Of a stretch of DNA of 64,000 nucleotides, positions 2,201 to 5,037 are shown piece after piece. The translations under genes were made by a program, and so were the position numbers. Source of the DNA: Pseudotabrizicola sp. (GTDB taxonomy: Bacteria > Pseudomonadota > Alphaproteobacteria > Rhodobacterales > Rhodobacteraceae); NCBI RefSeq assembly GCF_030684215.1, contig NZ_JAUXOV010000070.1, forward strand, positions 310,001 to 374,000. The letters run 5' to 3'. Each line of letters starts with the position of its first letter. Positions within the stretch are counted from its first letter, which is position 1. The notes below the pieces were generated by a model. That model did no database searches. It was given only the letters and a program-made list of their open reading frames with translations, and was not told the origin of the DNA.

Positions 2201-2902
2201 ATGGCAAGGATCGCCCTTGTTGACGACGACAGGAATATCCTGACGTCGGTCGCAATGACACTTGAAGCCGAAGGTTTCGAGGTTGAAACCTACAACGACG
2301 GCTAGTCAGCCTATGATGCGTTTACGCGCAAGATGCCTGACATGGCTGTGCTTGACATCAAGATGCCGCGTATGGACGGTATGGATCTGTTGCAGCGCAT
2401 CCGTCAGAAAACGTCGATGCCGGTAATCTTTCTCACATCCAAAGATGATGAGATCGACGAAGTGCTGGGCCTTCGGATGGGGGCCGACGACTATGTTAAA
2501 AAGCCCTTCAGCCAACGCCTGCTGGTTGAACGCATCCGGGCACTTTTGCGGCGGCAAGAAGCGATTGCCACGGGCGAAGTGGCCGTCACCGAAGAAACCA
2601 AGATCATGGAGCGCGGCCAGTTGCGGATGGACCCGCTGCGCCACTCTGTGACATGGAAGGGTCTTGATGTTTCCTTGACTGTCACTGAATTCATGCTGCT
2701 TCAGGCACTTGCCCAGCGACCTGGTTTTGTTAAGTCGCGCGACCAGCTGATGGACGTGGCCTATGACGATCAGGTCTATGTTGACGACCGCACGATCGAC
2801 AGCCACATCAAGCGGCTGCGCAAGAAGATGCGATCGGTGGATGATGAGTTTTCCGCCATCGAAACCCTGTATGGCATTGGCTATCGTTACAACGAAGCAT
2901 GA
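2201..2902 (+). pseudogene. chvI: Response regulator ChvI, interrupted by an in-frame TAG
   Basis: From ATG 2201 the frame reads [19 protein letters not shown], the N-terminus of ChvI with its acidic pocket (DDD at 9-11). Codon 35 (2303-2305) is TAG, directly after YNDG. After it the same frame continues without any change: [17 protein letters not shown] (phospho-acceptor Asp), [42 protein letters not shown], and a complete winged-helix domain ending at 2902. Only one base separates TAG from CAG (Gln). There is no frameshift and no other decay. Options are a sequencing error, a recent nonsense mutation, suppression, or restart at ATG 2333, which would give 189 residues without the first strand and the acidic pocket. 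The stop overlaps chvG by ATGA. Confidence 0.85.
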
Positions 2903-4605
2903 CTGCGATGCCTCATATCGGTCTCAGGGAGACGCAGAAACCAAAGGGCGGTGATGTCCTGTTGAGTGAGGATTGGGTCTCGCCCGAGGGCGATGACCCT
3001 GCCTTGCGCAACAGCCGGAACAAGCGGGGGCTTGTGTCTCTCAACCGCTCACCGCTTGCACGCAAGATCATCATTTTCAATCTGATGGCTTTGCTGGTGC
3101 TGGTTGCGGGCGTGCTGTTTCTGAACCCCTTCCGCGACAGCCTTGTTATTCAGCGCGAACAGGCGTTTGTGACCGAAGCGCAATTAGTCGCAGATATCTT
3201 TGAATCGCGCCTTCCCGCAGAAGGGATAGTCGATATGGGTGAGGACAGCGTGTTTGCGCGGTCCATCGGTGACATCAGTCTAAGCGCCGGAACCTCGATC
3301 TATGTCATCGACAAAGATGGCCGTGTGGTTGGCAACGCTACAGGCGCGATCCGCGGGCAGGAGGGGGCGGTGTCCGGCCAATCCACGCTGATTACTGATT
3401 TTCTGAATTCCGTCTGGGAAAATTCATCAAAACTGTTCTCGTCAGGCCGCGGGCGTGGGGCGGTTGTTGACCCCGAAAGTCTGGCGCGGGCCTTGTTTCA
3501 AAGGGCGATGTCCGGGGAAACCGTGATCAATCTAGGCAAAGGGGCAGAGGGCGGGGCGCTGTTTTCAGTCGTAAGCCCGGTTGAGCGCGCCGGTGAAGTC
3601 CTGGCCGTTGTTGCCCTGATCAGCGCCGAGGGCGAGATTGACGCGCTGGTGCGCAACGAACGCGAACAGATCTTGCAGATGTTCCTGTTAGCACTGCTGG
3701 TGTCGATCGGGCTAAGCCTTGTGTTGGCCTCGACTATTGCAAATCCCTTGTCCGATCTTGCGGCGGCGGCCGAACTGGGCCACGACCGCGATGCGAGAAA
3801 GATGCAGCCGGGGCGTATCAGAATACCGGATCTTGCCGGGCGTCCCGACGAAATCGGGCGGCTGTCTGTCGCAGTGCGCGGCATGGTCGCAGCACTGTAT
3901 GACCGCATCGACGCCAATGAACAATTCGCCGCAGATGTTGCCCATGAAATCAAGAACCCGCTGGCCAGCCTTCGCTCGGCTGTCGCCTCGCTGCATATGG
4001 CAAAGCGCGATGACCAGCGTACCCGGTTGCTGGAAGTGATTGACCATGACGTCCGCCGTCTGGATCGGCTTGTCAGCGATATTTCCAACGCCTCAAGGCT
4101 CGACAGCGAATTGGTGAAGGAAGAGGAAGAACAGTTTAACCTTACCAAAACACTGACCAATCTGTGCGAATATCTGGGGCAGCAGGCGGGTGAGAAGGGT
4201 GTTGAACTGATCACCGACTTCCCGACGACCCCGATCATGATATCCGGGCTGGAGGCGCGCTTGGCGCAGGTGTTTGTCAACCTGATCACCAACGCGGTTT
4301 CGTTCTGCGAAGACGGAGATGCCGTTCGGGTCTGGATGCGCGAGCGTGACAATCGTGTGCTGGTGGTGGTCGAAGACACCGGTCCAGGCATTCCCGAAGA
4401 GGCGCTTACGAAGGTGTTCAAGCGGTTTTACTCTGAACGGCCACAAGGGCAGTTTGGCAACAATTCCGGCCTTGGCCTGTCTATCTCGAAGCAGATTGTT
4501 GAGGCTCATGGCGGCGTGATCTGGGCAGAAAACATTCGGCCGACCCACGCCGATGCCACATCGGACCCACTAGGCGCGCGGTTCATTGTTGGTCTGCCGG
4601 TCTGA
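2899..4605 (+). CDS. chvG: Sensor histidine kinase ChvG
   Basis: 568 residues; partner of ChvI in the acid/envelope-stress two-component system of alphaproteobacteria. The order is: cytoplasmic N-terminus; TM1 (about 57-75); periplasmic sensor part; TM2 (about 258-279); HAMP; dimerisation box [20 protein letters not shown] with phosphorylated His349; then N box (LITNAVSF), G1 ([10 protein letters not shown]) and G2 ([16 protein letters not shown]). All catalytic motifs are intact although the regulator in front of it carries a stop codon. The ATG at 2899 overlaps the chvI stop (ATGA), which implies translational coupling; loss of chvI translation could therefore lower ChvG synthesis. hprK follows 9 nt later, so sensing and the PTS branch share one operon. 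Confidence 0.95.
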
Positions 4606-4614
4606 TCCTGCGCC

Positions 4615-5037
4615 ATGACGGCGCCGCTCACCCTGCACGCGACGACGGTGGCCTTTGACGGGTGCGCGGTCCTGTTGACCGGGGCGTCGGGCCGGGGCAA
4701 ATCATCGTTGGCACTGCAACTGATGGCTATCGGGGCGCAGCTTGTGGCCGATGATCAGACAGTGCTGAATTTGCAAAGTGGCCAGATCACCGCATCCTGT
4801 CCGCCGCCCCTTGCGGGGCTGATTGAAGCGCGCGGTCTCGGCTTGTTGAATGCGCCATACTTGCCCCAAGCGCGCTTGTGTCTTGTGGTCGATCTTGACC
4901 ACACAGAAGCGGACCGTTTGCCCGATCACCGCCAGATCACGTTATTGGGACAGCGGCTTTCGCTTGTGTATGGCAATAATTCAGCCCATTTTCCTTCTTC
5001 GCTTAAATACTATGTTCTGTTTGGGCGCCGGGAATAA
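4615..5037 (+). CDS. hprK: HPr kinase/phosphorylase, short alphaproteobacterial form
   Basis: 140 residues, consisting only of the catalytic C-terminal domain; Gram-positive HprK has about 310. It phosphorylates Ser46 of HPr and reverses this, linking metabolic state to PTS regulation. Visible: Walker [10 protein letters not shown] (residues 23-31), VADD, and the signature [11 protein letters not shown]. It lies between chvG and rapZ; its stop (5035-5037) is one base from the rapZ start. The target HPr with Ser46 is encoded 1.3 kb downstream in the same operon. Confidence 0.92.

Follow-up and report, generated by a model that had tools for sequence, protein, structure and literature searches.

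The window analysed here, a stretch of 64,000 nucleotides from Pseudotabrizicola sp., lies on contig C68 of a 4.44 Mb genome in 81 contigs (100% complete, 1.13% contamination). It includes chvI, which encodes a response regulator, followed by the sensor kinase gene chvG and by hprK (Table 1). The chvI frame is interrupted at codon 35 by a TAG that sits immediately 3' of the codons for YNDG and is in frame both with the ATG at 2201 and with the downstream stretch ending at the TGA at 2900-2902. The frame is free of stops from 2171 to the TAG, and again from 2306 to 2902. Over the 25 residues on either side of the TAG, identity to the orthologue of a congener (G011) is 100% and 96%, which excludes a chance in-frame resemblance. 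The original prediction that chvI is perfect but for a lone in-frame amber codon was thus confirmed.

Table 1. Features of the chvI-chvG-hprK region (positions in the window).
Feature	Position	Strand	Basis and remarks
chvI 5' part, 34 sense codons then TAG	2201..2305	+	beta1, alpha1, beta2 and D8-D10; secondary structure assigned on a modelled ChvI from a relative
In-frame amber stop, chvI codon 35	2303..2305	+	Sequence; codon table of relatives
chvI remainder, open frame with Asp52 and winged-helix DNA-binding domain, under purifying selection	2306..2902	+	ORF, Pfam, dN/dS
First in-frame ATG past the stop, codon 45, possible restart	2333..2335	+	Sequence; Shine-Dalgarno calculation
chvG, sensor kinase, intact; ATG overlaps chvI stop as ATGA	2899..4605	+	ORF, domains; putative translational coupling
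hprK, short HPr kinase, intact	4615..5037	+	ORF, domains

The part of ChvI past the stop (189 residues) is 98% identical to that of a Pseudotabrizicola metagenome bin, the nearest named relative, and 92-98% identical to those of 15 congeners. It matches Pfam Response_reg over positions 43-111 of 111 and Trans_reg_C over 3-76 of 77, and these matches, together with the identity to the congeners, mark it as a ChvI orthologue with an OmpR-type winged helix. The TAG parts codons 1-34 from codons 36-233, and hence D8-D10 from Asp52; these residues in one polypeptide are what we take to be a complete ChvI receiver, and the frame as assembled does not encode one. The genome contains a single chvI orthologue at E 1e-70, and a second copy was not found at this threshold.

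The adjacent gene encodes the kinase expected of a ChvI partner, with Sensor_TM1, HisKA and HATPase_c domains and a HAMP match below its cut-off only. The claim that the partner and the downstream genes are intact held for chvG and hprK, which are open and carry the expected domains apart from the sub-threshold HAMP; for the genes further downstream it held as open frames up to 9 kb, and in a filtered lesion scan wherever a match in G011 or in a further relative, G009, existed. The chvI stop overlaps the chvG start as ATGA in this genome and in all 15 genus relatives; in a wider set of 104 sequences the overlap is ATGA in 30, GTGA in 12 and neither in 62. The ATGA arrangement suggests translational coupling and, hence, that the TAG might exert a polar effect on chvG.

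Codon 35 was compared across 109 relative loci (L004-L112, own locus excluded), which comprise 104 distinct sequences. It is CAG in 83 of these, CAA in 20 and CTC in one, and a stop in none. In all 15 same-genus genomes searched chvI is full-length and stop-free; among the relatives compared, the TAG is private to this lineage. One sequence of the set, from another metagenome bin of the family (L069, DAIEJF010000184.1), has an in-frame chvI stop at codon 224, near the C-terminus and inside a conserved motif. In a draw of 394 genomes from the family, chvI matches at E 1e-70 were obtained in 357 (320 of the 347 of good quality), and among the matches listed only the gene described here has a stop. 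The remaining 37 genomes (27 of good quality) gave no match at this threshold, so the ChvI system can be absent. A pattern scan of viral contigs for sister sequences found none.

To what extent the stop is isolated was examined in a filtered lesion scan, in which 374 kb of the contig were compared with 171 coding-like genes of G011 (67,420 residues). The scan yielded one in-frame stop with conserved flanks, that of chvI, and one frameshift-like match. The latter lies outside the window, at G000:C68:269121-270324, and was seen against the G011 orthologue; in an unfiltered scan the same gene also splits between G009 and G011, which may be an effect of ORF picking. The other filtered comparisons gave 2 matches (own genes against G011), 1 (own against G009), 6 (G011 against G009) and 3 (G009 against G011). 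The six stops among them are all found no later than codon 55, between flanks of 60-92% identity, and are probably over-extended starts; the chvI stop is likewise early (codon 35), but its flanks are 100% and 96% identical. The run of 97 G009 genes against this genome gave no lesions and is silent on chvI, which was probably not included: in the unfiltered scan a longer antisense ORF lies at the place of chvI in G009, and the ORF picker probably dropped the gene. The unfiltered scan, superseded by the filtered one, returned 45 and 40 raw candidates in this genome; antisense ORFs and over-extended starts were judged to account for most of them.

Across the whole genome, 1 of 50 Response_reg matches holds a stop, namely chvI itself, as does none of 146 ABC_tran (ABC ATPase) matches (150 of 228 first-look candidates scored). 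Genome-wide decay or poor assembly was thus not seen in the 374 kb scan or in either set of domain matches. Two further response regulators of this genome (C37:4581-4910 and C59:4729-5058) score almost alike, and the frame of each is open over 264 residues. The G+C content of the sampled 374 kb of C68 is 60.8%, and that of the sampled stretches of G011 and G009 is 63.6% and 64.1%.

The possibility that TAG is read as a sense codon was addressed through the tRNAs and the release factor. ARAGORN was run on the 41 loci with tRNA matches, and no amber-suppressor tRNA (CTA anticodon), for which a check had been proposed, appeared in this incomplete set. The gaps in the set are that none is labelled Ile, that no Ala tRNA has the anticodon TGC and that Tyr was seen in a flank only; the sole Gln tRNA seen in it has the anticodon TTG. 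A Met tRNA lies first on both C77 and C78, at an identical offset (65-138), which looks like a break at a repeat. A tmRNA search gave matches below the cut-off only. The RF1 gene prfA scores 481.6 bits, above its cut-off, and contains no stops, and of 162 genes that end where their G011 counterparts do, among which there may be some antisense ORFs, 27 terminate in TAG. With RF1 intact, TAG an ordinary terminator and no CTA anticodon among the tRNAs seen, recoding or suppression of the codon was rejected.

The age of the stop was estimated from selection on the codons beyond it. Against G011, this chvI shows 77 synonymous and 5 non-synonymous codon differences, the TAG included. Past the stop, dN/dS (NG86) is 0.0211/0.904 against G011, 0.0200/0.766 against G003 and 0.0189/0.898 against G009, giving an omega of 0.021-0.026; purifying selection still acts on these codons. 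Three pairs of intact relatives (whole gene minus codon 35) gave 0.0037-0.0066 over 0.27-0.35 and an omega of 0.014-0.020, a little below that of the interrupted gene, which is nevertheless far from neutral. Four replacements (codons 44, 120, 140 and 151) distinguish it from all three nearest relatives. With a dS of 0.56-0.61 on its own branch, the unconstrained share of the branch does not exceed about 3% (95% Poisson bound), a bound that is rough because NG86 values near 0.9 approach saturation. Since omega is near that of the intact pairs and so little of the branch can have been unconstrained, the stop is either very young or not real.

Translation might in principle resume at the ATG at 2333, which begins 27 bases past the stop codon. 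Its Shine-Dalgarno energy is +0.6 kcal/mol (median of random sites -3.0, their best quarter -4.7), which indicates no pairing; the test is weak here because the start of chvI itself (-4.9) is barely in the random best quarter and that of chvG reaches only -1.5. Of the 15 genus relatives, 14 also have ATG at codon 45; their chvI genes are intact, so that Met45 is not a start in them; in the wider set it is Met in 35 of 104 and Leu in 69. In a structural model of a relative's ChvI (19 sequences; mean pLDDT 80.8, and 82-95 in 11 of 12 ten-residue receiver blocks), residue 35 opens alpha2 (34-43), D8-D10 follow beta1 and Asp52 closes beta3 (48-52). On this model, a start at codon 45 would delete beta1-alpha1-beta2-alpha2. 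A model of the restart product (21 sequences) has a pLDDT of 40-63 over its first 70 residues and of 74-83 over residues 91-170, the DNA-binding part; both models are limited by shallow alignments. The alignment and the domain match bear out the original prediction in so far as D8-D10 would be lost from a restarted protein while Asp52 and the DNA-binding domain would remain in it. By contrast, an evolved restart or an always-on form found no support, given the missing Shine-Dalgarno pairing (a weak test), Leu45 in most of the wider set and the poor receiver model, and an evolved restart gene was rejected since Met45, though kept in the genus, is not kept in the wider family. Nor did anything favour an altered regulator, always on or always off, over simple loss.

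The TAG is probably a very recent nonsense substitution in chvI, confined to a single lineage of a Pseudotabrizicola-like bacterium, and we infer that the base is real. Ribosomes starting at 2201 would halt after 34 codons and RF1 would free the peptide, so that no working ChvI would be produced. Early termination would probably lower ChvG too, as chvG starts inside the chvI stop. The cell, or the clone that was cultured or binned, would then be without the ChvG-ChvI envelope-stress response and would live where this is tolerated. A smaller but substantial chance remains that the organism has an ordinary chvI and that the TAG stems from one wrong base in the consensus or the base calls, or from a minority variant taken up in binning or assembly. 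One base in a gene that is perfect elsewhere, with little or no relaxation of selection, fits such an error, and the absence of a second lesion or of decay in chvI is also what one would look like. No other in-frame stop passed the lesion, Response_reg or ABC_tran tests, and a 16S rRNA search of the assembly gave no match, a result that would fit a metagenome bin, though it was also obtained with 5 of 14 control genomes. The open chvI of all 15 genus relatives counts against a real loss allele, as does the position of codon 35 in the first-55-codon zone where the control comparisons also yield stops, its nearly identical flanks notwithstanding. On the other side, one filtered in-frame stop per 67,420 residues compared argues that the error rate of the contig is not high. 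The weights given to a nonsense allele and to a consensus error are judgements.

A genuine TAG that is leaky or bypassed is very unlikely; near-cognate readthrough or a restart at 2333 would then supply enough regulator, full-length or short, and keep chvG translated. The nearby in-frame ATG, its presence in the genus and the conserved downstream frame are consistent with such a bypass; the missing Shine-Dalgarno pairing says little against it when the start of chvG itself pairs so weakly, and restart past early amber codons has a precedent in lacI of E. coli. It is opposed by the intact RF1 and the absence of a suppressor among the tRNAs seen, by the unpaired ATG and the Leu at codon 45 in most of the wider set, and by a product that would lack beta1-alpha1-beta2-alpha2 and is modelled far less confidently over its first 70 residues than the receiver of the relative. 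Decidedly unlikely, too, is a tolerated TAG at which readthrough or restart would give an attenuated ChvI or an unphosphorylatable DNA-binding fragment, with chvG still translated and the stress response tuned down, not lost. That chvI is an old pseudogene, or that the lineage has recoded TAG, is most improbable: the stop itself is all that speaks for it, and the low omega past the stop, the small unconstrained share of the branch, the use of TAG as a terminator, the intact prfA and the rarity of stops in receiver and ABC ATPase matches refute it at the resolution of these tests. Nothing found pointed to a new mechanism.

The original prediction held that loss of ChvI would be notable, since several alphaproteobacteria need it for growth or for host and acid responses. 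This has to be tempered: the case rests on one base of one assembly, and some alphaproteobacteria do not depend critically on ChvI for growth. In minimal medium the chvI mutants of Agrobacterium have a normal appearance; they are also hypersensitive to beta-lactams (PMC9731437). Caulobacter chvI mutants are impaired in osmotic stress and in minimal medium and are partly helped by loss of ntrX or chvT (PMC9731502). As the mutants of both genera are culturable in permissive media, a ChvI-less strain seems plausible in such conditions. The portion consulted of a paper on CenKR in R. sphaeroides contains nothing on ChvI essentiality in that species (PMC9275681). A literature search (titles and abstract beginnings) returned no named nonsense allele of chvI and no dedicated ChvG-ChvI study in Rhodobacteraceae. 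If the stop is real, the bacterium would be a natural ChvI-deficient strain and a ready test of the role of ChvG-ChvI in its family; at present the case amounts to a single, unconfirmed base of one assembly, and general views stay as they are.

The gene described here resembles the ChvI, ExoS-ChvI and ChvGI systems of alphaproteobacteria (OmpR family) in its receiver and Trans_reg_C domains and in its position beside a kinase gene and hprK, and differs from them in that the frame is cut at codon 35. Translation is known to restart past early amber codons in E. coli lacI, and an in-frame ATG soon after the stop is shared with that case; here there is no sign of restart, the ATG lacks Shine-Dalgarno pairing, and a restarted receiver would be short of its first two beta-alpha units. 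In no observed respect does the candidate differ from isolated nonsense alleles (young pseudogenes) of bacterial genomes, with which it shares a single stop, no further decay and little or no relaxed selection.
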